64,000 nt of DNA from Rhizophagus irregularis (lineage: Eukaryota > Glomeromycota > Glomeromycetes > Glomerales > Glomeraceae). Location: the NCBI RefSeq assembly GCF_026210795.1, contig NC_089444.1, positions 2,098,501-2,162,500 of the forward strand, given 5' to 3'. Both the position numbers and the translations under genes were made by a program. The number at the start of each line of letters is the position of its first letter. The stretch's first letter is position 1. Positions 1 to 63,452 of this stretch are shown in pieces. Under the pieces are notes generated by a model, which searched no databases, was not told where the DNA came from, and saw nothing but the letters and a program-made list of their open reading frames with translations.

Positions 1-374
1 GGCCAGAATTAATGATAATTTCGGCCAAAATCACATTTTGAAGATCGGCGATTTTAATCCAATAAAATTAATTTTGCCGATTTTGAAAACTATACATGCG
101 ATATTTACCCAAAGACGATGCTGCACCATAATTTTTATTAGGGCAAGTATATTGAAAAAATTTTGCCCTTAAATTTTATTATATTTCCCCTGACTGTTAA
201 AAAGTAAGTATATTTTAATAAAATATAAAGTAAAATAAAAATTTATATAGCCTTAGTAGCTATAAATGTTTATAAAAGTATAATAAAAATATCATATAAA
301 AGATGGTATCATAATAAATATTTTCAAACAATAAAAATAATTATTTTATGTCAGAGTTTGTATTACCATTTTTA

Positions 375-860
375 AACGCAAATATATCAAGATTCACTGA
401 TTCGTTTTCTATAATTTTAGGCTCATTGGAAAGCCCTTGTTCTGGACTTTATAGGCGAAAAAAGAGCTCGCCGATTGAATCATTAGATCCAGAGATATTT
501 ACGTTTAAAGTTGAGGTATGAACTTTTTAACATGCTTAAATGCAAATATCTTGGGATCCACTGATCCATTTTTTATAAATTTAGACTCTTTGGAAAGCCT
601 TTGATCTGGTCTATATGAACGAAAAAAGAGCTTGCCAATTGGATCACTGGATCTGGAGATATTTACGTTTAAATTTGAAGTACAAACTTTTTAATATGCT
701 TAAATGCAAATATCTTGGTATCCACTGATCCGTTTTTTATAAATTTAGGCTTTTTGGAAAGCCCTTGATCTGATCTATATGAGCGAAAAAGAGCTTGTTA
801 ATTGGATAATTGGATCTAAAGATATTTACGTTTAAAGTTGAGATACATATTTTTAATATA
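375..860. repeat. Tandem repeat, about three 163-166 bp units
   Basis: Three diverged direct repeats begin near 375, 538 and 704. Each contains the words GCAAATAT, a TTGGAAAGCC motif, GCGAAAAA(A)GAGCT and GATATTTACGTTTAAA in the same order. No reading frame survives in all three, so I read it as a minisatellite and not a gene. It lies just outside the large inverted-repeat element that starts near 850. The first 370 bases of the window hold only AT-rich sequence with a few GGCCAAAAT/GGCCAGAAT words that recur at other element ends here. Confidence 0.8.
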
Positions 861-1620
861 TATAGTAAGTGCTAAAAATTATATTAATTTAAATGAAATA
901 TTTACCAAATTATAGTTAAGATTGCCTGCCGAAACTAAAAAGAAAATTCCAAAAGGTTTCGGCCAATCAAATCAAATACTAAAAATGCTGAAATTAGGCC
1001 GAAACTTGGTCTTAATTTTGGCCAAAATTAAAATTCGGCCGAAATTATGATATTGTGTCACGTGACATTACACCAATTTCCAAAAAAAGGAAATTTTGTT
1101 TCCCAGTAAAATTGGTAAAATCAGTTCACAAGGGTTATACAAATTTCCAAATAAGGAAATGTATAATGTCGATCATTTTCTGGCCAGAATTACATCCTAA
1201 AAATGGCCAGAATTACATCAGGAAGTCACGGAAAAAATGTTCATCAAATGTACATCGGTCACTTGATGTACATCATAAAGAAACGCTGAACATCGGACCC
1301 TGCAATGTACTACCGATGTCACAACATTTGATGTTCATCGCCAAATCAAAGATGTTCATCACCTGTACATTACGATTAATTAACATATTTATTAATGATA
1401 TTAAAATACATGCATTATTTATTATTATACTATCATTATACTATACAAATGTATTATTAACTAATTAATATAATATCTATGGCTATTTTAAATCTATATA
1501 ATATGTTAAATACTAGATAAAAATTGATTTCCAAAATAAACCTACAAAGAAAAAAATGAAAATGTTAATAAAACTTTTCGTTAAAAATAAAAAAAGTAAA
1601 ATTCGAAGGGATATATATAC

Positions 1621-3150
1621 CTTCGAAATAGGATCCAGTCGCGTCTTGGACCTACAAAAGAAAAAAAAATGAAACCGTTAGTAAAAACGTTTTGTTAGAA
1701 AAAATAAAAATTTGAAGGTACTGTATATACCTTCAAAATTCCATATAACAGAGTGATCCCAGATCCTACAAAAAAAAAGCAAACAAGAAACATTAGTTTA
1801 CGTTTCTAAAAAAAAAATAAAAAAAATCCAAGTTTCGAAGTGAATTGAAATCTTTGAAACTTACCAATCCGTTAAGATTTGTTTTCTTTTTCCGTTCTTC
1901 AGAAATCCACCCAAGATCTAAAAGAAGAAAAAGAATTAGAAATAACAAAAAAAATTAAAAAAATTAAAGATTCGTATTGTCCTTAGAAATCTTTGGGTTT
2001 TCTGTTCTTCGAAAGCCTATCCAAAACCTAAAAATAAAAGAAAAGAACGGTTAGAAACCGTTCATAATAATAAAATAAATAAAAATAAACCAAAGATTCG
2101 TACTTACGAATTTTGGTTTTTTCCATTTTTCGGAAGACACCCAAGAAACCCAAGACCTAAAAATAAAATAAAAAGAACGGTTAGAACTATTCATAGTATT
2201 AAAAAAAAAATCTAAGGGTTGTAATATAATACTTATGAACCTTAGTTCTCCATTTTCCGTTCTTTGGAAGACCACCCGACGGAACCTATAAAAAATAAAA
2301 TAAAAAGAACGGTTAGAACCGTTCATAGTATTAAAAAAAATAAATCTAAGGTTCATAATATAATACTTACGAACCTTAGTTCTCTGTTTTCCGTTCTTCA
2401 GAAGACCACCCGACAGAACCTATAAAAAATAAAATAAAAAGAACGGTTAGAACCGTTTATAGTATTAAAAAAATAAATCTAAGGTTTGTAATATAATACT
2501 TACGAACCTTAGTTCTCCATTTTCCGTTCTTCAGAAGACCACCCGACGGAATCTATAAAAAATAAAATAAAAAAAACGGGTAGAACCGTCCATAGTATTA
2601 AAAAAAATAAATCTAAGGTTCGTAATATAATATTTACGAACCTTAGTTCTCCATTTTCCATTCTTCGGAAGCCCTCCTGAGACACTGAACCTATAAAAAA
2701 AAAGAAAGGAACGGTTAGTAAACCGTTCCATAATAATAAAAAAAATAAATAAAAACTAAGATTCTTACGAATCTTGGTTCCTCTTTGCGAAATCCCTTTC
2801 CACTATCTCCCTTTCCCAGTTTTTTACATTAAAGTCCGGTTTCATGAACAAGCCGGCGTCCTACAAAAAAAAACAATGAAAAAGAAACGTTAGATCGTTT
2901 CTTAAATTAAAAATAACAAAAAATCTTCCCCTTTCCAGTTTTTTACTACCTTAAAGTCTGGTTTCGTAGTATTCAAGCCAGCGTCCCCTAGTAAACGTCC
3001 TACAAAAAATAAAATAATAAAGAGAAACGTTAGTTCGTTTCTTAAATTAAAAATAACAAAAAATCTTCCCCTTTCCAGTTTCTTACTACCTTAAAGTCCA
3101 GTTTCATAGTATTCAAGCCGGCATCCCCCTAGTAAACGTCCTACAAAAAT
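1621..3150 (-). repeat. Tandem array of micro-exon-like modules, about 130 bp each
   Basis: About twelve diverged units read on the minus strand. A typical unit has a T-rich stretch ending TATAG or TTTGTAG, a 49-nt GC-richer core, then GTAAGTA-type sequence, then about 80 nt of AT-rich sequence containing CTAAC or TACTAAC 20-40 nt before the next AG. Cores that I can delimit are 1621-1651, 1731-1765, 1865-1917, 2108-2156, 2237-2285, 2371-2419, 2504-2552, 2638-2690 and 2769-2860, with weaker ones near 1983-2026, 2932-3000 and 3066-3140. The unit at 2237 has lost its donor GT (reads AT). Cores near 2770-3000 have open frames that resemble each other (motifs DAGL..KPDF.V.NW). Whether it is a transcribed gene is inference; it may be an expanded exon-intron satellite. 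Confidence 0.6.
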
Positions 3151-3246
3151 AAAATAATGAAAAGAAACGAAAAAAAAAGATAAAATTAAAAATAAAAATA
3201 AAAAAAAAAATAAATTAAAAAAAAGTAACGAAACTTATAAGTGTGA

Positions 3247-3360
3247 GAAAAGGGGGAGAACGAAAGGGAAGTGAAGGACGAAAGGAAAGGGAAGGATATA
3301 GGAGAAGGACGAAAGGACAAGAGGACGAAGGGAAGTGAAAGAAAGGGAAAAAAAAAGTTT
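3247..3360. repeat. Purine-rich simple sequence
   Basis: A 110-bp nearly pure A/G tract on the plus strand with repeated GGACGAAAGG and GGGAAGTGAA words. It lies at the upstream (minus-strand 5') side of the micro-exon-like array, so on that strand it is a long pyrimidine tract. It could be a promoter-like or leader sequence or only low-complexity DNA. Confidence 0.6.
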
Positions 3361-3574
3361 TAAAGTTTTTTATTAGACTTTTTTTTATCAAAAAAAAAGA
3401 TCAATCGGCAAACTGATCACGTGATAACGATCAATACTAACTGAAATTTACTAGTTAGTAATTATATTTTTATTATAGCAAAGATATGTACATTGAATAT
3501 TTATTATTAAATGCTGCACATCATGATAAAAATTTCATTGATGATGTTCATTAATGTTAAATATTACTTGTACA

Positions 3575-4951
3575 AGGACCCCGCTTACTTCTAATAAAGG
3601 TCTCCGGGCAAAATTTCAGATTTACTAGTAATTTTACCAACCTTTCTTATCTCATAATTTTACCATATATATATAGTGACCTTTTAAAATTATATTAAAT
3701 TTTACCTTAGATTTTCAGAGACCTAAATTTTTTTAAATATTAAATAAACAAAATATTTTATAATCATTACAATAAATTTTAAAAATTTTTTATTTTTACT
3801 AAGTTTAATTCTTATTCTTTAAAGATAAATAACTTTTATTAGTAAAAAAAGTACTTTGAATTACAAAAATACTATAAAAAAAATCTTAAAGACACACATC
3901 TTTAACTTTACTTCGAAACTATTATTCACTTACTTTCTTTAAAAAAATCTAATTAATTTTTTTTAAAAAAAATAAATTCGTAATTGGTATTATTATGAAA
4001 AAATGCTCGTACCCCATAAGTATTAATCCAACTGCTATGAAAATATTTATCTAAATATTTTCGACCTTGCCGAACAACTTTACTTAAGGATGAAAAAGTG
4101 ATTTCATTTGACCAAAGTGCCCAAATTACGCCCTATAATCACTGATCGGGAAAATAAAAAAAAATTAAAAGTGCGAAAATTGCTCGTATTCCGTAAATAT
4201 TAAACTGATTCTTATGAAAATTAATATTCAGGTAGTTTCGATCTCGCCGAACAATATTACTTAAGCTTAAAAAGGTGATTTCATTTGACTAAAATGCCCA
4301 AATTACGCTCCGAATTTAATAAACAAAAAACGTAAATTTTAAGTTAATATTAAAATAAAAAAATGCTCGTATGCAATAAATATTACTCCAACTGCTATAA
4401 AAATTCAAATATAAGTAGTTCGACCTTACTAAACAACTTTCTTAGATAGTAAAATATGATTTGATTTAACCAAAGTACTGAAATTAAATTCTGAAGTTGC
4501 TAATTGCTATACGAATTTTTATATTTTAAAAGCTAATTTTTGTAATAATTTTCAAAAAGATAGTGCTAATGCAAATAAAATTAAAAATATAAAATGGTTT
4601 TTACAAGTATAAAGAAGAGAATAAATTTTTTATTTTGAGAAAAAATTATAAAACGTATATTACCAAATATTGTAATAATTGTTGTACAATATTTCAAATT
4701 AGTATATATAAGGTAAATATTAAATTTTATATACAATTTTACCTTATTATTTACCGAAACATTTGTAAACTTATATTTGATTTTACCTTATAAAACCGGA
4801 AACCTATTTTAACTTTACCTTACATATCCGGAGACCTTTATTTGTCATATATATAATTTTACCTTTATCTATTAAGAGACCTAAAATTTTTTTTTAATAT
4901 AAATTTTACCTTATATTTTCGGAGACCTCTATTAGAAGTAAGCGGGGTCCT
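3575..4951. mobile_element. hAT-type non-autonomous element, long copy
   Basis: Terminal inverted repeats begin AGGACCCCGCTTACTTCTAA and continue into a (A/G)AGGTCTCC motif. They are flanked by the perfect 8-bp duplication CTTGTACA (3567-3574 and 4952-4959). An 8-bp duplication is characteristic of the hAT superfamily. The interior has no coding capacity but carries three tandem satellite units (about 3990-4500). Smaller relatives lie at 52,639-52,872, 60,209-60,434 and 61,791-62,012. Confidence 0.85.
3985..4500. repeat. Satellite-like tandem repeat, three units of about 177 bp
   Basis: Units begin with ATGCTCGTA-like or TTGCTCGTA words at about 4002, 4177 and 4357, and each carries a CGAACAA(C/T)-TTACTTA motif and a TTTCATTTGAC..AA(A)GTGCC word. 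The same unit family occurs in three copies at 10,000-10,600, outside this element, so the repeat has moved or been captured independently. Confidence 0.75.
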
Positions 4952-5399
4952 CTTGTACATTAAAAAGAATGAATATTGCAATGTACATGATTTGCATAAA
5001 TGTATATGTAATATACATTTTTTTCGTAACTTCCTGATGTATACCAATAATTTCGGTCAAATTTTAGACTTTTGGCAATAATTTCGGCATTATAAATTTC
5101 GGCAAATTTATTTTTGATTGCCTAAACTTTTGGCTACAAAAAAGTTTCGGCCTTGGCCTAAATTACCTAATTTCGGCAAGTAAAAATTTTTTAATACTCA
5201 CCCTCAATTTACTATATATTATATAGTATTTTGTATAATAAAAATGTAACAAAATTAATATTTTAATTAAAGGTAAATAAATCAGCCCATATATGTAAAT
5301 ATTCATTGATTTTATTAAAAGTTACTATGTTATCTTTCTTTTTTTTTGGGTTTAACTCACTGGATATTAAATGCTTCTTTTTGACCTCCTTTTTCTTTT

Positions 5400-7150
5400 T
5401 CAAATAATTTACACAAATATTGTTCAATTTTGATTTTTTGTTCATCAGGAGCAAAATCAAGACTTTTAAATCTAAGATCAAGAATTGAAGAAATTAAAGT
5501 TTTAGTAGTAAGTATAGGATAATATTTTTAAATTTGCATATAATTTTGATTTAATTTCATCAAGTAAATCAAAAGTAAGAACTGGTTTACTAATATTAAA
5601 ATTTCCTTTATTTTCAAATGTATCTTTTTATTTTGTAATTTTCTGATAGATTAGTTGTAATAGTATTAATAATTTCAATTAATATTCATACATGTAAGCT
5701 GTTTGTTACATATTTACTTCCTCTTAATTCTGTTATTGCAAATAATGATAAAATTTCTTTTAAATCAGTAAGAAGGTCCCATTTATGATTTGAAATCATT
5801 ATTTTCTTTAATTTTTTACCATCTTTCTTTGAATCTAAATCTGAATCAATTAAAAGTGTATTACATAAGATTTTAATCTACTCTTTTAAATATATCAAAT
5901 GTGACTATGCAAAATAACTAGAATTCCAGCATGTTGTTACATCATTGATTAAATGAAGATATTTAGCTATATTTTTAACATTCTAAAATTAAAATTTGTT
6001 AATAATTAAATTTATAACTTATAAATAAAAGTGATTTGCAATATTGGGATTCACTTTTTTATATTGATTTTATATAAAAAAAGTGAGTTGCGGTATTGTG
6101 ATTCACTTTTTTATATTGATTTTATATAAAAAAAGTGAGTTGAGATATTGCGATTCACTTTTTTATATTGATATTATATAAAAAAAGTGAGTTGCAGTAT
6201 TGCAATTCACTTTTTTATATTGATTTTATATAAAAAAAGTGAGTTGCAGTATCGCGATTCACCTTTTTATATGATATTAATATAAAAATGTGAATCACAA
6301 TATTGCAACTTATTTTTTAATATGATTTTAATAATATAAAAATTGTATTGCAATATTACAGTGCATTTTTTATAATTTATTATTACTCTTTTTGATTTTT
6401 ATCTAATATATATTAATACTTTATTGGCTAGAACTTTTTAGGACCTGGTTCGCTTCTGGTCCAAAATTTGGACTTAAAGATCTGCAGACCAGATCTTAGG
6501 ACTAGGTCTTTAGATTCAGAACCTAGGACTTTACCATCCCTACCTTAAAGTCTACATATCAGTAGTTAATGAAACATTTTTTGTCTTTAACTTAATTTTT
6601 TTAATTAATGCTAGTAAGGTATAATTATAAGCATTACCAATAACTTTCTTAATACCTTTTTTATCTGGTATAATAAAAGCTGAATCTAATTCACTAATAA
6701 GCCGATGAAATGAAGGATTTTGGATAACATATAATGGTTGAAGATTATCAATTATCCAATCTGTTAAAAATTTACGAAGTTCTTTTTACCTATTGTCTTT
6801 ATGTTTATGAACATGTATAACAGTTTGAATAATTTGCTAATTTTGCATAATAGAACAATCAATTAATTAAATTGATTTTTAAAAATAAAAAAAATTAATA
6901 AGAGTACAAGATTAACTTTATTAATTTTACCATTTTTTGATATTTTATGATCAGTTAATAAATAGTTGATGGCATTTTCAGTTGAACCATCATTAATGTA
7001 AAGAATTCCACATATTTTTTCATTAGCATTTAAAAACTTACATTTTTTAAGTGATTCTCCTTTATCTCCTGTTTACCTTCAGTATCCACTTTTTCAAAAT
7101 AATTCCATATTTAACTCCTTTTTTTTGGCTATTTTTTAATCGTTTTGTTG
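5400..7150 (-). pseudogene. Decayed BED-finger/hAT transposase
   Basis: Frame-broken minus-strand reading fragments fit a hAT transposase in the right order. Near 7010-7130 is a BED-finger-like stretch (IWNYFEKVD then Lys/Cys-rich). Near 6640-6770 is a core segment containing LTDWIIDNLQPLYVIQNPSF and IPDKKGIKK. Near 5690-5820 is NHKWDLLTDLKEILSLFAIT with LRGSKYVTNS. Near 5440-5500 is a LDLRFKSLDF segment typical of the hAT C-terminal half. Stops and frameshifts separate them, and a palindromic tandem repeat has expanded inside at 6030-6310. The family assignment rests on motif recognition. It could be the former source of activity for the 8-bp-duplication elements of this window, but its own termini were not found. 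Confidence 0.7.
6030..6310. repeat. Tandem 52-bp near-palindromic repeat, about five units
   Basis: Units start near 6082, 6134, 6186 and 6239 (AGTGAGTTGC...), with partial ones on both sides. Each has AAAAAGTGAGTTGC and GATTCACTTTTTTATAT as opposing arms, so every unit can fold into a hairpin around a GTATTGCG-like loop. It interrupts the hAT pseudogene. Unit spacing is constant and there are no unique spacers, so it is not a CRISPR array. Confidence 0.85.
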
Positions 7151-11530: not shown

Positions 11531-14046
11531 TTATTTCGGTGGTGGGGGTGGAGGTTGAGTTGGTGGAGGTGGAGGTGGTGGGGCAGGAGCAGAAGGGGGT
11601 GGTGGTGGCTGTTGCTTTGTTGGAAGGAATTAAGGAAAGTGAGTAGTATATTACAAAAATCATTTAATAAAGATCCAAGATAATATTTACCCATCGAGCA
11701 GTGGAAGGTGGAGGGGGTGGATATCCTGCAGCAGCAGCAGCTGTTGAATAAGTTGTGCCATAAGTAGCGCCATAACTAGAATTGTTGTAAGATGTGTACG
11801 CATAATTTGATGCTGCAACAGGAGGTGGAGGATACATGGAAACATTTGGAGCAGGAGGATACAAAGAAGATCCTGGTGGTGGGGGTGGTGGATAAGTAGT
11901 AGATTTTGCAGTATTCCAGGGTGTAGAAGTTGTTGACAATCCCGGAGGAGGTGGGGCGTTACCCAATCCTATAATGGTTTTGAAATTCGTATGAATAATG
12001 GATTTAACAATGTGATTTAAATTTAAAATAATAATACCTGGCGGTGGTGGAATATTTGGTTGTTGCCAAGGCGGTAAAGCGTTAGTTCCGGGATGTGCAT
12101 TAGAAGCAGTTACTGCCGGTTTTGAAGCCCAGGGTGGTGCAGTAGGAGAGCCTAAAGCTGAATGAGATGCCCATGGAGGTTTAGAACCACCAGCAGGGCC
12201 ATAATGACCCTATATTTTAAATAGAATCAATTAAAATGAATTAAATCATATCAATTGTGTCCACAACAATATTTATGCATACCACTTTAATGCCAGGATC
12301 ATTACTTCTTGATGATTCAACATTTTCTCCTAATTCAGCCATTAAACTCAAATATTCGCTATCTAATTTTTGATCTCTCTGTTTGGCTTGTTGTAAAGCT
12401 TCAGGATTATTTCTTTCCATACAATCCCTAGCAGTGTGACCATGACCTCCACAGATTCGACAAGTTAAATTAATAGTGAAATTCTGAGTTTCTGTACATT
12501 CGTACTTGCGATGGCCAGTAGCGCCACAATTAGTACAAATTTGATTTTCATCGTCTCGAAGTGTACCATTTAGAGCTGCTAATTCACGTAATTGTTGTCT
12601 TTTAAGTTCATTTTGACCTTCAGGAACTGAAGCAGACTATAAAAACATTTATATTAACCTTAATTAAGAATAATTGATATATAGACTATTATTAACATAA
12701 ATTTACCGTTTCAATAATCTTGTTGATCATCTTTACTGCTTTAGCAACTTTTTCTTCGGCATCTGCAGTTACTAAACAATGTAAATCTTCTTCTTGATTT
12801 GCATTAGCAGCAGCATCTGTCCTACTTTTCCCTTCCTTCACGCTTCCTCTACCACGGATGCTGATTTTGGCACCGGACTCTGACTCCATTTTTTTGAGGG
12901 TATTTCCACGCGGGCCAATTAATAAACCAATAAAATTAATTTCGGGAAATTCTTTAGCCGGAATATACACTTTATCTTGTACTTTTGTAGGCTTTTTATA
13001 ATCAGCGGGAGGTTTGAAGTCGGGATTTCTTCGTACGGCTTCTTCGATTAATTTATGTCTCTCATCTTCCAACTTTTTGCGATATCTATACTCTCTAGTA
13101 TTAACACGTTTACCCTGAGAATCGTAAATTGGTTCTGGAGATGGCGATCTTTAAATCAACAAAAAATATAAAGTTAAAATAAATGATACATATAAAAAAA
13201 AAATTTTTTTAATAGGAAAATTAAATACCTCTCTTTTTCTGGTGGAACATAATCCCCTAATCTTAATTTTCGGCCAATTTCTTCTAACCTCATATGTACT
13301 AAAAAAAGATTTATTATTAATTAGCAAAATAAATTATAAACCAGAGAGATTACACTAAAGCAACTTACACAAATAAGTATCCAATTGTTCTTTTGACATA
13401 TTGTAGGTAATAGCAGTCGGCACACCTATATCAACCTTTGTTTCTTCCCCACCCCACCTACTTCTTCTTTTGCGCTTACGTTCCTCAGTAGCTCCATCTG
13501 AAATATTCCAGTTAGTTGACGTAACGGTATGGTACGATTTACAGAGTTCAGATTTTCATAGGAAAAAAAAAATTAAGTGAATAGCAAATAACGAAACACA
13601 ATTTTGCACATTGTTAGTATATGAAATTTTTGTTAGAACATAAATAATCTGTTAAATTTTTTGATTGCCCTGTCAATCATTACGTTTTAATGGCAATTAT
13701 TAATACGTAGTAAGTTTATTCATAGAAGAAATCAAAAGCAAAAGCAGTAAGCAAATAATGTTACTCGCTAAGAATTATGGTAAATAATATATAGAATTTA
13801 AGTCCTTTTTTTTTTTAATACAAACGGGTATTTGAAAACAAAAGGGAACAATTTCTAGATGACCTGGTCAATCAAATTTATACCTGTTTGTTGATCGTTT
13901 TCTTCTTTTGCTCTTTTGAGAGAGTTTCCATTTGACTCTAATTTTTTTTCTGCTAAATCCTCGATTTCTTCATTAGAACCTCCTGCTAACCTCCTTTTTC
14001 CCAAAGGAATATTATTTGTACCAGTGATTGTCGAAGGCTTATACAT
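11531..14046 (-). CDS. SF1: Branchpoint-binding protein / splicing factor 1 (SF1, BBP)
   Basis: Nuclear pre-mRNA splicing factor that binds the intron branch site during early spliceosome assembly and partners U2AF. Eight exons are readable (junctions near 13884/13497, 13379/13298, 13229/13148, 12707/12636, 12283/12209, 12038/11968, 11691/11640). In order they encode a Lys/Arg-rich N-terminus with a KRKRRSRW motif that matches the U2AF65-binding region, a helix-hairpin segment, a KH domain with [15 protein letters not shown] and the KEGK motif, the QUA2-like stretch, two CCHC zinc knuckles ([14 protein letters not shown] and [14 protein letters not shown]), then a long Pro-rich tail ending in PPPPPPK. 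Start ATG at 14046 is the first methionine compatible with the family; another lies at 14079. It is divergent from the next gene. A branch-site reader is notable beside the branch-site-rich array at 1.6-3.1 kb, but no link is implied. Confidence 0.95.
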
Positions 14047-45376: not shown

Positions 45377-45772
45377 TACAAGTGCCGCTCGTTATAATGA
45401 TACGTCCGGGATCAGAGATTTTTGTCATTATAACAAGATGTCATTATAACAAGCTTTTTTTTTTATAATGACATACAGTCAACTCCCTCTATAGTCACTC
45501 CCGTTATAGTCACATTCTACTATATAGTCACACCAGTTGAATGTTCAAAACACTTTATTATTAAAATCTATCCTATATAGTCACAATCTATCTATAGTCA
45601 CTATCACACCTATCCTCAAAAATCTTATATTAAAAAGAACCGTTTATAATCGCAGTTATATAAAGAATATATTAAATAACTTGGCATCTAATAATCGTAC
45701 AAAGATGTATCATAGCTTGTTAAAATCGTCTCACTGAGCACAAATCGAATGGTGGTAGTTTTATTCTTTCCT

Positions 45773-47750: not shown

Positions 47751-47767
47751 TAGTTTTATTCTTTTCC

Positions 47768-48032
47768 TGTGCAAACAGTCTTTTGACTTTATCTTTTATT
47801 TATATTTAAAATTTCGAAAACATAATCGAACAATATTACAAAAATAAGAAAATAAACTAATAAAAAATAAAAAGAGTAGCTTCACGACTCATACAAGTAA
47901 AGAAATCTAAACTAAAATAAAATTAAAGCGAAGAAAAACTAAACTATTACAGAATCGCATACCCCAACTTTACCCGAAAGCCAGTGTGAGTCAACTATAC
48001 AACATCCAAAAAATCCAGTCCGTTACCAGAAA
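47768..48032 (-). mobile_element. 5'-truncated LINE copy (3' tail only)
   Basis: About 265 bp nearly identical to the 3' end of the larger LINE copy next to it (TGTGCAAACAGTCTT..GACTTTATCTTTTATTT at plus-strand left end). It stops sharply at CCAGTCCGTTACCAGAA where the parent continues into coding sequence. Truncation at the 5' end is the hallmark of target-primed reverse transcription. Confidence 0.82.
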
Positions 48033-48301
48033 AGTTTTATTCTTTTCCTGTGCAAACAGTCTTATGACTTTATCTTTTATTTATACTTTGGACTTCGAAA
48101 AATAATCGAACAATATTACAAAAATAAGAAAATAAACTAATAAAAAATAAAAAGAGTAGCTTCACGACTCATACAAGTAAAGAAATCTAAACTAAAATAA
48201 AATTAAAGCAAAGAAAAACTGAACTATTACAGAATCGCATACCCCAACTTTACCCGAAGGCCAGTGTGAGTCAACTATCCAACATCCAAAAATCCAGTCC
48301 G

Positions 48302-48649
48302 TTACCAGAAAGAAATCCTAAGAGGTTGAACTGTTAAGCGGCGCAGAAAATCCAAGTGCGAGATCCAAGATCCACCCCGAATTATAGAAGAGGATATCCA
48401 AGAAATCCAGGAATCCTGAGAGACTGACGCCAAAGAAGAGTTGTGTTGTTGTGGAGAAGTAGTATTAGGAGAAGAAATTGTAGATGGGCCACGTAATTTG
48501 GAAGCAGCCGAGATACCCTGCGACTCCTCCCAAGCATGGAAAAGAACATTCCGACACAGCCAAATTTCACCATATAATTCGACTTGGAAGTCATTAAGAA
48601 GGGGAGAAATAATCTTGTATATAATAGAGAGAGGAAAGTGTTGATTCAA
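48302..48649 (-). pseudogene. C-terminal ORF2-like fragment of the LINE
   Basis: A 115-codon frame with the piece IWLCRNVLFHAWEESQGIS, resembling the end of LINE polyproteins that finish in a W..RC...W...GI pattern. The start is artificial (the upstream part is deleted). It ends just before the 3' tail shared with the truncated copy. Confidence 0.4.
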
Positions 48650-48923: not shown

Positions 48924-51188
48924 TTAGCGCATTAAGAAAGTAGGATGAACAAAATCAGCGGGTAAAACCCACTGTGATCGAAAATCAGAAGGAGCAGGGT
49001 AAGGATGTGAATCAAACCAAGGTGCACAAACATCCAATAATGATAAGATATCACAAGGTTTAACACGACCTAGTTTGAAAGAAAACCGTGTATCACTGTT
49101 CCAAAATTGTGAAAATGTTGAAGAGGAGGCCGATTTAGTGATAACAGATTGGATGGCATCGCGAAGATACTTCTTTGATACCGAAGAAGTATTGTGCTTG
49201 GAAATTAATAACCAGAGGAAATTGTGAGAAGGTACATAAATGGAAGCACTATTCGAGAGTATCCTTCGGACCATATCAATAATGGAACGACTAAAGCCAA
49301 GAGTTTTGAAATCTTGATAATCAATAACAGGGCAGTTTGGACCAACAAAAGGACCAGAGGTGGGTTTGTTAGTAATAAAATGACTTGCAACTACAGAAGA
49401 GGGATTCAAAATCACTTTTTGGATAGAACCCGTAAACTTAGAAGAAACGAACGCAACTGAAGATTGATGTGAACGTTCTTTCAAACAGAAGGAAACATCA
49501 GGACGCGAGGATACAAGATTACGTATATTCTGAACAATGGAGTAATCAGTAGTAGACATAGTCAAATTATAGGAGGTAGGAGGAATGACTATAGCAGGAT
49601 CCTTAGTAGCCATCCACATAGAAGAGTCAAGAAGATCGGGGTGAACAACATGTCGTGAAAATTTACTCCGGTCTGATAAAAGGTCTTTATGGCGTACTTG
49701 ACGGGCAAGTTGTTTCTTCGTAGGGTAGGAGATGGATTGGTGAGCAGAATATGAGATAAGAGTTCGTGCAGAAAGTGAACCATTGTCGTCCTCAAGAACA
49801 TGGTGAAAAGCATAAGATTTGCGGTAGGAAATTCCTAGGCGTCGGGAAGTTACGTCTTTATAAAAACCATCAGCATGTCTTTTAGACACACGGTTACAAG
49901 GTAAACTGAAAGGAGGGGAAGAAGGAGGGGAGGAGTGTGAACAAGTTTTTTGTCGTGAATATGACAAGCATGACGAAATTGAGACATAACATAGGCAGCA
50001 GGAGTCTTGCAAAACGGACAACCAAAATAAAGGCCAAGGTAAAAGCAAGATTGTTGGTATCGAAATTGAATAAAGGTACGAGTACGTCTATTATTACGAT
50101 GAGAAGATGACCAATGAGCAAGAGAGGTAACACGTTGTGTTAATAAAAGCTGGCGTAATCTATTAAAATATTTACGTCGAGCATGAGAGGAAATACGGTT
50201 TTGTCGGTAAAAGAAAAAGGTTAAAAATTTTGATAAAATAAATTTTAAGTTAGGAGAAGGACGATCAGATGTAAATTGAAAGGGATCAGTAGTTGAAAGA
50301 AGAGGAGAATTGGTATGAATCGAATAACAATTATCCGAATCAGGAGTGGGGTCCAAAAGGAAGTAACAGTTGCCTCGTCGAATAGAATATAAACGGTTAG
50401 AGCCAACATTTCGAGCAGGACGTATCCGTCCATCCAGGATGGTACGTATTGTGAAAGTGTAAGGTGAACACTGTGTGTGATCATGAGGGAGGGCTGAAGC
50501 AGAAGTCGCAGGAAAAATTTCCGCAGGAATACTATTTAAAGAAAGGACCGGAGAAGCTAAAGGAGGAACGATATTGTCATAATCAGCGGTATCTACTAAA
50601 GCTGAAATTTGGGGAGTAATAAGAGAGGAATCCGGAAAATTATTTCGAAAAGAATTCTTAGGCTCGGAAGGACGTGATAAAGGTGGAACCAATAAACGTA
50701 TTGTAGAAGGGGATAAAACCAAACGCGCAAAAGACAATTTAGTTTTAATTTTCTGTGCGCGCTTAAAGGATGCAGGGGAAATCATAGAGGATACGCGTTT
50801 ACAAAGAAATTTAGGAGTACGCCGTGAAGGGCGTAAACGATTGGTGCATCGTGTAGAAGGGGTACATAAATCTAAGATGATATTAGGATCGCCTCGTGTT
50901 TAGAAGCCCAAATAGCTAATGGAAGAGGAGGTAGATCGTCATTCATTGGATCATCATGTGATGGATGATCGTCAACAGGGGGGATAGCGAAATCCTTTTT
51001 TGAATCCGCAGTAGACGAAAGAGAGTCCAAGCGCAAGTGTAAAAGGCGTTTTTGTCAGGAAGAGAGTTGTAACGAGCAAAAAGAGTTTCTTGTTTAAGGG
51101 CGCACTTAGCGCAGAGGTCCTCAACTTCGCGAAGTTTAGAAAGAACTTCATCCCAACTCAAAGTTGAGAAGTCATGAGAAGAGGCCAT
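48924..51188 (-). pseudogene. ORF1-like gene of the LINE, frameshifted
   Basis: Starts MASSHDFSTLSWDEVLSKLR (51,188) with a coiled-coil-like N-terminus that contains a Cys pair (CAKC). The frame is lost near 50,990 and resumes in the frame from 50,785 to about 50,000, which includes a C-x2-C....H-x3-H-like stretch (CPFCKTPAAYVMSQF..CHIHDKK). A further shift continues the frame from 50,048 to 48,924 (motifs WMATKDPAIVIPPTSYN and RSQWVLPADFVHP). No family recognised beyond a gag-like zinc-finger guess. Coding is no longer intact. Confidence 0.55.
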
Positions 51189-51462: not shown

Positions 51463-51830
51463 GAATCGCCTCATCGAGACGAATCGAATGGTGGTAAGCT
51501 CATCTCTCTGTGATCAATATTGACGGAGTTATTACTTAAAAACCATTTAATATTTTTTAATTTCGGAAATTGATCTAGTGATTGGAATTCGATGTATCTT
51601 ATACCATTAGATTCGTCTCATCAAGACGAATTGAATGGCGGTAAGATCGTCTTTCTAGAATCAATATTGACAGAGTTATTACACAAAAACCATTAATATT
51701 TTTTTAATTTCGGAAATTAATCTAGTGATTGGATCTCGACATATTTTATACCATTAGAACCGTCTCATCAAGACGAATCGAATGGCGGTAAGATCATCTC
51801 TCTACGATTAATATTGGCGAAGTTACGATA
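51463..51830. repeat. Internal 147-bp tandem units of the pogo-like element
   Basis: Three units share TCTCATCAAGACGAAT and GGCGGTAAGAT words, with spacing about 145-150 bp. The short copy at 62,347-63,452 has four (62,787-63,290), so copy number varies between copies of the same element. Confidence 0.8.
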
Positions 51831-62346: not shown

Positions 62347-63452
62347 CAGTCAACTCCCTCTATAGTCACTCCCGTTATAGTCACATTCTACTATATAGTC
62401 ACACCAGTTGAATGTTCAAAACACTTTATTATTAAAAACTATCCTATATAGTCACAATCTATCTATAGTCACTATCACACCTATCCTCAAAAATCTTATA
62501 TTAAAAAGAACCGTTTATAATCACAGTTATATAAAGAATATATTAAATAACTTGGCATCTAATAATCGTATAAAGATGTATCATAGCTTGTTAGAATCGT
62601 CTCACTGAAATGAATCGAATGGTGGTAGTTTTATCCTTTTGCGATCACTGGCTGATGAGTTATTCAACAAAATGTTAAGCATCGGCATTATTATATTTCT
62701 TGATTTACGTTTACTGCGCCATTTAACATTTGCTAAATTTCTCGGTACCTAGTAATTGTAAAAAGACGATTAATAGCTCGTTGGAATCGCCTCATCAAGA
62801 CGAATCGAATGGTGGTAAGCTCATCTCTCTGTGATCAATATTGACGGAGTTACTACTTAAAAACCATTTAATATTTTTAATTTTGGAAATTGATCTAGTG
62901 ATTGGATTTCGATGTATTTTATACCATTAGATTCGTCGCATTAAGACGAATCGAATGGTAGTAAGATTGTCTCTCTAGGATCAATATTGGCAGAGTTATT
63001 ACACAAAAACCATTAATATTTTTTTAATTTCGGAAATTAATCTAGTGATTGGATTTCAGTGTATTTTATACCATTAGAACCGTCTCATCAAGACGAATTG
63101 AATGGCGGTAAGATCGTCTCTCTAGGATCAATATTGGCAGAGTTATTACACAAAAACCATTAATATTTTTTTAATTTTGGAAATTAATCTAGTGATTGGA
63201 TTTCGATGTATTTTATACCATTAGAACCGTCTCATCAAGACGAATCGAATGGCGGTAAGATCATCTCTCTACGATTAATATTAGCGGAGTTATGATACAA
63301 TAAAGTTTTGAGTATAATTTTGGCTAAAATTATATTAATTTTTGGCTGGAATTATGATATACTAATATAAGAAATTTTTTATATAGTCACATCTCTTTAT
63401 AATCACCAAATATGGACTGTCCCAAATGTGTGACTATAAAGAGAGTTGACTG
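62347..63452. mobile_element. pogo/Tigger-like TIR element, short (near-empty-site) copy
   Basis: 1,106 bp, TIR identical in the first 20 bases to 45,476, TA flanks at 62,345-62,346 and 63,453-63,454. It has the site (TAGTTTTATCCTTTT at about 62,626-62,640) that is interrupted in the long copy and four internal 147-bp units. No open frame encodes a transposase, so it is non-autonomous. Confidence 0.9.

Follow-up and report, generated by a model that had tools for sequence, protein, structure and literature searches.

The window, a stretch of 64,000 nucleotides from Rhizophagus irregularis (contig NC_089444.1, positions 2,098,501 to 2,162,500), carries on its minus strand, from position 3141 down to 1542, a head-to-tail array of exon-intron modules, which confirms the tandem array described in a first-pass annotation of the same letters. 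Read on that strand, a module opens with a pyrimidine tract that closes in AG; after it come a short core, a donor of the GTAAGT type, a spacer rich in T and a branch site of the CTAAC type (CTAAC, CTAAT or TTAAC), before the pyrimidine tract of the next module begins. The acceptors end at 3141, 3000, 2861, 2691, 2553, 2420, 2286, 2157, 2028, 1918, 1766, 1652 and 1542. Cores with both ends clear measure 92, 53, 49, 49, 49, 49, 53, 35 and 31 nt, and thus the core sizes listed earlier were recovered. The features of the array are, in the direction of the modules:

3240..3352, minus strand: tract rich in pyrimidines that precedes the first donor and resembles a promoter or leader (putative promoter role), kept in the nine loci compared
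3233..3238 (about), minus strand: first donor, broken in the window copy (ATAAGT)
1542..3141, minus strand: tandem array of exon-intron modules, the window copy having 12 units that match the profile
2769..2860, minus strand: micro-exon, 92 nt
2638..2690, minus strand: micro-exon, 53 nt
2504..2552, minus strand: micro-exon, 49 nt
2420..2503, minus strand: intact intron, 84 nt, with GTAAGT, CTAAC, TATAG and both the donor and the branch hairpin; RNA fold z -3.96
2371..2419, minus strand: micro-exon, 49 nt
2286..2370, minus strand: intact intron, 85 nt, with two hairpins; RNA fold z -5.28
2237..2285, minus strand: micro-exon, 49 nt; the donor after it is broken (ATAAGT)
2108..2156, minus strand: micro-exon, 49 nt
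2028..2107, minus strand: intact intron, 80 nt, with two hairpins; RNA fold z -4.75
1865..1917, minus strand: micro-exon, 53 nt
1731..1765, minus strand: micro-exon, 35 nt, with donor GTATAT within the hairpin GAAGGTA...TACCTTC; the fold of 1653-1745 has z -4.64
1621..1651, minus strand: micro-exon, 31 nt, with donor GTATAT

Not every unit of the window copy is intact, as manifested by donor ATAAGT at 2236, branch site CTACC at 2580 and donor GTAAAT at 2637. A GTAAGT donor is unclear in the first two units and in the unit at 2027-1987. The first donor reads GTAAGT in all eight other loci that matched the search string (13 others searched) and ATAAGT in the window copy. Over the whole window GTAAGT is not enriched (32 matches versus 27.8, sd 5.6, in shuffles), and the case therefore rests on the spacing of the signals and on the other genomic copies rather than on motif counts. 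A search of window positions 1-6000 against Rfam gave no match at the gathering score.

This array forms the inner part of a DNA transposon that is bounded by terminal inverted repeats (TIRs) and a target-site duplication (TSD):

1216..5039, minus strand (direction of the predicted transcript): whole TIR transposon, about 2.4 kb without its nested insert; TIR CATCAGGAAGTYACG
1216..1240, plus strand: TIR, left on the plus strand and at the 3' end of the predicted transcript; exact match to CATCAGGAAGTNACGNNAAAAATGT
5015..5039, minus strand: TIR, right on the plus strand and lying 5' in the predicted transcript; the pattern of the left TIR recurs here on the other strand
1214..1215 and 5040-5041, no strand: TSD TA, as identical 2-bp flanks
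3575..4951, no strand: nested hAT-like TIR insert of 1.4 kb, beginning AGGACCCCGCTTACTTC... and inverted at its other end; 8-bp duplication CTTGTACA at 3567-3574 and 4952-4959

The other copies of the window transposon run uninterrupted across the point of the nested insert, which we take to be hAT-like from its 8-bp duplication only. The first-pass picture of the array is supported in part; it recognised neither the membership in a transposon nor the covarying hairpins; the inverted repeats within which the signals of the window array sit were missed.

The TIR of the window element has 96 genomic matches with at most two mismatches, and the reversed pattern has none. Eight other copies (L008-L015) are 92.6-95.2% identical to the window element in their best piece; the end at window position 1216 is common to seven of the eight (L009-L015), and the TIR of the opposite end is likewise present in seven (L008-L014). 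Among 40 loci scanned, both ends were found in nine, and in all nine the 2-bp flanks are identical (TA in five, AT in two, CA and TT in one each); 3-bp flanks are identical in none of these nine. The window element contains no transposase, and its longest frames, of 122 aa (in the array) and 150 aa (1016-1468, overrunning the end of the element), have no Pfam match. Because of these ends, the TSD and the lack of a transposase frame, the window element is a non-autonomous TIR DNA transposon. An autonomous partner was not found among the four TIR-bounded elements that were opened (L049-L052) or near L047. A Tc1/mariner frame in L050 was rejected as such a partner, being part of a nested insert with its own TIR that is missing from L049, a 97.6% relative over 3.0 kb. 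As regards a Tnp2-type transposase, a Transposase_21 frame is present near L047, outside that element. L050 also holds, at 2031-2273, a captured host-like gene piece within the same TIR family: an 81-aa open stretch that is present at three places between such TIRs and that has an 82% match in a 231-aa open frame at C13:843589-843792.

Array-bearing elements have at least three kinds of ends. The tested ends of the window family (CATCAGGAAGTYACG) are one kind; CATCAGCAAGTTT, read by eye, bounds L047 and L048; and CACTGGTC or CACTAGTC, also read by eye, is found at L045, L035, L054 and L059 and is the start expected of CACTA. Non-autonomous transposons of the CACTA/EnSpm (CMC) type have TIRs, a 2-bp TSD and repeated subterminal motifs. 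The window family resembles them in all three respects, its TSD lying within the 2-3 bp of that group, and other array loci have the ends just mentioned. In contrast, the TIR of the window family starts with CATCAGG rather than with CACTA or CACTG, and no transposase was found with it. Membership in Tc1/mariner was rejected, since four of the nine TSDs are CA, AT or TT rather than TA.

The genome was searched over 146,748,485 bases in 32 contigs. A query of about four units gave at least 113 genomic matches, with 40 of 296 candidates scored, and one form of the donor hairpin occurs 485 times with at most one mismatch, its reversal not at all. Forty loci were cut out and aligned, yielding a profile of 178 columns and 452 rows of the same unit, in support of the earlier suggestion that an exon-intron cell had been amplified. 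In the arrays of these loci, which total 65.8 kb, there are 288 CTAAC on the array strand versus 15 on the other, and 245 versus 15 GTAAGT; the relatedness of the units means that such counts are not independent observations. Twelve apparently isolated hits, taken from the first 100 of the 485 places, were opened. Eleven have at least two profile matches, some of them partial, and the twelfth is a truncated array piece; the TIRs flank whole arrays, not single introns. The possibility of a solitary repeat removed from host genes by splicing thus finds no support here. The nearest thing to a lone module is L063 (C8:2773250-2774450), a truncated piece with one complete exon-intron unit in unrelated DNA.

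Among the 300 units in which all three signal columns are filled, GT is present in 238 (and missing at the donor column in 62), AG in 280 and TAAY in 289; 208 units have the GT, the branch site (TAAY or TGAY) and the AG of a spliceosomal intron all intact. Introns have a median length of 84 nt, and 23 nt separate the branch A from the AG, with 91% pyrimidine in between. Five AGs were observed between branch site and acceptor versus 6.1 expected, a difference that is uninformative as to AG exclusion. GC content is 0.44 in the exons and 0.22 in the introns. Six host introns of the window, whose positions between open frames were judged by eye, measure 60-80 nt and have GTA donors (GTAAGT in two of the six) and AG ends.

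The donor and the branch site are each set within an inverted repeat of their own (...CCAAGATTCGTAAGTACGAATCTTGG... for the donor, GAACGGTTACTAACCGTTC for the branch site). Pairing was assessed on 113 rows (28 consensus rows plus the unclustered rows), with partners slid by 1-3 columns as controls. Paired cells amount to 86.6% in the donor hairpin (23-46% when slid) and 89.7% in the branch hairpin (21-68%), and cells in which both partners have changed number 71 in the donor hairpin (slid 13-36) and 34 in the branch hairpin (slid 2-11). Counted by base pairs with any double change, there is no excess over the slid controls (donor 8 versus 5-10; branch 3 versus 2-4). A signal G or C changes less often than the non-signal base with which it pairs (G71 nine times versus 22 for C82; C134 four times versus 16 for G125), and the A-T pairs are mixed. 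RNA folding gave z scores of -4.0 to -5.3 for four of five window introns and -1.0 for the fifth; 60 of the 300 array introns were sampled, with a mean of -4.78 and 90% below -2, and the six host introns ranged from -1.28 to +1.15. Array introns thus typically carry two covarying hairpins, one over the donor and one over the branch site. In L049 and L050, which belong to the same end family, units with other stems also hold TTAAC or CTGAC in a hairpin, as judged by eye, and their retention of the signals indicates that the plan recurs beyond one repeat.

Selection on the splice signals was assessed with a test similar to that of McDonald and Kreitman, in which a change private to one row counts as young and a difference between a cluster and the global consensus counts as old. 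Private changes are taken to have arisen mostly after insertion. Rows with fewer than 95 aligned bases (80 of 452) were dropped, the remaining 372 were grouped into 86 clusters, and counts were taken from the 28 clusters with at least four members from at least four loci (287 rows). The splice columns were 13 in number, comprising GTAAG, TAAY and both AGs. They have an old:young ratio of 5:34 versus 517:417 at all other columns (odds ratio 0.12, p 8.5e-8), and versus the hairpin arms alone (young 103, old 93) the odds ratio is 0.16 (p 3e-5); the p values are too small because the clusters are related (CpG decay lies outside the model), and the pattern is consistent. Young changes accumulate at the splice columns at 34 per 3,361 cells (0.010) versus 417 per 33,696 elsewhere (0.012), near the ordinary rate, and hence these bases are not simply less mutable; the young rate at the branch columns alone is lower, at 0.0046. 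The G of the donor, which is part of a CpG, has been lost from 14% of rows.

The old rate at the splice columns is 0.015, versus a mean of 0.161 (sd 0.035) in base-matched random column sets, none of 20,000 being as low. The acceptor AG, with two old changes in 95, is as constrained as the donor and the branch site. In 12 held-out loci outside the profile (60 rows) the mismatch is 0.026 at splice columns versus 0.154 at base-matched columns (0 of 20,000); these loci were picked by a motif of the donor hairpin, a choice that works in favour of the donor columns and not of the branch-site or acceptor columns. Motif columns anchor the alignment and may look over-conserved, yet the hairpin arms also anchor it and do not have the pattern. 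The old:young and base-matched comparisons therefore support the proposal that splice signals are kept while the remainder drifts, as if splicing were selected. Divergence that is equal throughout the unit, named beforehand as the outcome contrary to that proposal, is not what the data show.

The elements also have a gene-like layout. L047 and L048 present, in order, a CT-rich tract, TATAAAA, an exon 1 that has an ATG and the donor GTGAGT, a first intron that is long and has numerous hairpins bearing CTAAC or TTAAC, the micro-exons, and a last exon with AATAAA. In the spliced models of these two loci one later acceptor is misplaced in both, the end of the first intron is misplaced in L047 and a micro-exon is skipped in L048. 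The first intron of L047, of the CATCAGCAAG family and at about 2304-3320 of the reverse complement, contains a separate array of alternating hairpins, of which AATCGGAACGTTGGCTAACGTTCCGATT and AACGAAACGTTTTTAACGTTTC are examples; a site resembling CTAAC or TTAAC is present in many of them. The layout of L047 and L048, together with the pyrimidine tract and first donor kept in the window family, suggests that the array elements hold a transcription unit, of which the window copy would be a decayed example.

The array, the transposon, its copies, the signature of selection and the hairpins are matters of observation, and from them we conclude that the elements probably carry a mostly non-coding transcription unit of many micro-exons, with selection for its splicing during the active period of the family. 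Such a unit presupposes transcription on the array strand, actual splicing, a non-coding product and a benefit to the element, each of which we infer. A module consisting of an acceptor, a micro-exon of about 45 nt, a donor in a hairpin, a T-rich spacer, a branch site in a second hairpin and a pyrimidine tract would have undergone head-to-tail amplification within non-autonomous TIR DNA transposons of Rhizophagus. During multiplication of the family, copies whose modules were still spliced would have fared better, so that purifying selection would hold the donor, branch and acceptor bases and compensatory change the hairpin stems, whereas the exons would drift in sequence and in length and the arms in sequence. 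After insertion each copy would decay neutrally, as the window copy appears to have done.

The selected trait would most likely be the act of being spliced rather than the content of the exons. Efficiently spliced transcripts might, for example, be treated like those of host genes and escape silencing by small RNAs or chromatin. Work on stalled spliceosomes in Cryptococcus reportedly ties splicing to small-RNA silencing. Splicing has reportedly been linked to small-RNA silencing in fungi and nematodes, and these links make protection from silencing a reasonable candidate benefit. An awkward point is the sequestration of the donor in a hairpin, which is expected to hinder pairing with U1; the donor hairpin might instead tune or order splicing.

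An inert satellite, derived from an exon-intron fragment that a transposon captured once and then amplified, would have inherited its splice signals without using them. Tandem repeats can homogenise by unequal exchange, several units of the window are broken, and elements with this TIR can hold pieces of host genes, as the 81-aa stretch in L050 exemplifies. Such a satellite predicts the same old:young ratio everywhere, whereas that of the splice columns is eight-fold lower and the base-matched tests agree, and units with unrelated stems keep the same signals; we consider this origin unlikely. Selection may instead have acted on the hairpins and not on splicing, the product being an RNA hairpin chain that serves as small-RNA precursors or decoys, or the DNA being a series of protein-binding palindromes, with GTAAG and CTAAC as mere loops. 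Both hairpins do pair and covary beyond the slid controls when cells are counted, and most introns fold far better than shuffles with the signals in or beside loops. Hairpin selection leaves unexplained the constraint on the acceptor AG, which lies outside the hairpins, the lower rate of change of G71 and C134 relative to their partners, and the intron-like spacing and step in GC between exon and intron, so that we regard it as about equally unlikely.

That the modules form a fast-evolving protein gene built of micro-exons, as had also been proposed, is very improbable. In L039, L041, L042 and L044 the six to seven recognised exons, when joined, are open throughout in one frame, and in L048 a frame is open from the ATG in exon 1 to an exon with a misplaced acceptor. 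Against this, the 225 exons flanked by AG and GT divide about evenly by length modulo 3 (85:78:62) and contain 306 stop codons versus 325 (sd 10) in dinucleotide shuffles; neither the preserved frame nor the depletion of stops that would mark a coding micro-exon gene was found among them, and the exons drift more than the splice sites. The open frames of the four loci nearly persist in frame-broken controls. The low fractions of these loci in the spliced-frame test (0 to 0.03) are not evidence of coding, because the control exons are slightly shorter than the real ones. In that test 7 of 33 loci gave a fraction of 0.05 or less, with a median of 0.37. Judged from these exons, the product of the array is most likely non-coding for the greater part, and coding is possible in the subfamily of L039, L041, L042 and L044. 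A mobile intron resembling an introner, single units of which insert into host genes as new introns, has parallels in introners, in many cases non-autonomous DNA transposons that bring splice sites with them (PMC9860276), and in the symmetrical introns that proliferate in Hypoxylaceae (PMC8469720). No copy recognisably serving as an intron of a host gene was found among the 12 isolated hits opened; 11 of the 12 are multiple and the other is truncated, and the TIRs bound whole arrays. This possibility is accordingly the most remote of all.

The proposed transposon-borne, spliced transcription unit has partial counterparts elsewhere. Flatworm micro-exon genes are protein genes that consist largely of very small exons and preserve the frame; the arrays share the very small exons but do not keep frames. 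The TnpA transcript of Spm, a many-exon transcript of a DNA transposon, codes for a protein. The arrays resemble it in placing many exons within a DNA transposon, the array transcript being predicted, whereas TnpA is protein-coding, and we know of no tandem exon-intron satellite among multi-exon transposon genes of this type. Introners are, like the arrays, transposon-derived and bring their own splice sites, often with TIRs and a TSD, and they become single introns of host genes (Gozashti et al. 2022, PMC9860276), whereas here complete exon-intron modules remain in tandem within the transposon. The internally symmetrical stwintrons of Hypoxylaceae are, like the array introns, fungal introns of pronounced inverted-repeat symmetry that have proliferated; their description (PMC8469720) gives terminal inverted repeats of 45-55 nt, symmetry of the whole intron and no flanking duplication. 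In contrast, the arrays have two local hairpins, at the donor and the branch site, inside a TIR element with a TSD. The array elements therefore work somewhat like introners and symmetrical stwintrons and yet are neither, since their modules remain in tandem within a transposon. No description of tandem exon-intron arrays in transposons or in this fungus was found in the freely accessible published literature that was searched.

Roughly two in three transposons of this fungus lack a classification (PMC11075540), and the plan of the arrays could account for some of them. The modules illustrate the amplification of an exon-intron cell as a whole, and they would provide a means of learning whether a donor and a branch site can be used when enclosed in hairpins. 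If they are spliced, the elements would represent a transposon in which splicing has itself become an evolved trait, the introns being of an unusual form with two hairpins, and would offer a natural test of whether intron density shields a transcript from silencing. A further-reaching proposal, which we put forward as tentative and rather doubtful, is that of a new selfish strategy: the transposons would carry a purpose-built array of splicing cassettes, each a minimal structured intron with a meaningless micro-exon, kept because repeated splicing passes the transcript off as host mRNA (e.g. by avoiding RNAi or co-transcriptional silencing, or by keeping chromatin open), and at least three transposon families of this fungus would share the cassette or use it independently.

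Several other features lie in the window. A 52-bp palindromic satellite (GTGAGTTGCAATATTGCGATTCAC, 6.5 copies) occupies 6020-6357, and a related repeat flanks the arrays of L043 and L057. A gene for the branch-point-binding protein SF1/BBP, with SF1-HH, KH and zinc knuckle domains, lies on the minus strand at 12241-13150 and shares the window with the array by chance. A GC-rich block at 48924-50899 (minus strand) contains two long overlapping open frames with no Pfam match at E 0.001, and near it is a 280-bp direct duplication at 47752-48311. A 147-bp tandem repeat occurs in two separated and nearly identical copies, at 51463-51825 and 62784-63300, and a 15-bp repeat, AGTCACTCCCGCTAT, likewise occurs twice, at 45477-45513 and 62348-62384; the two pairs are possibly one repeat element that is present twice.
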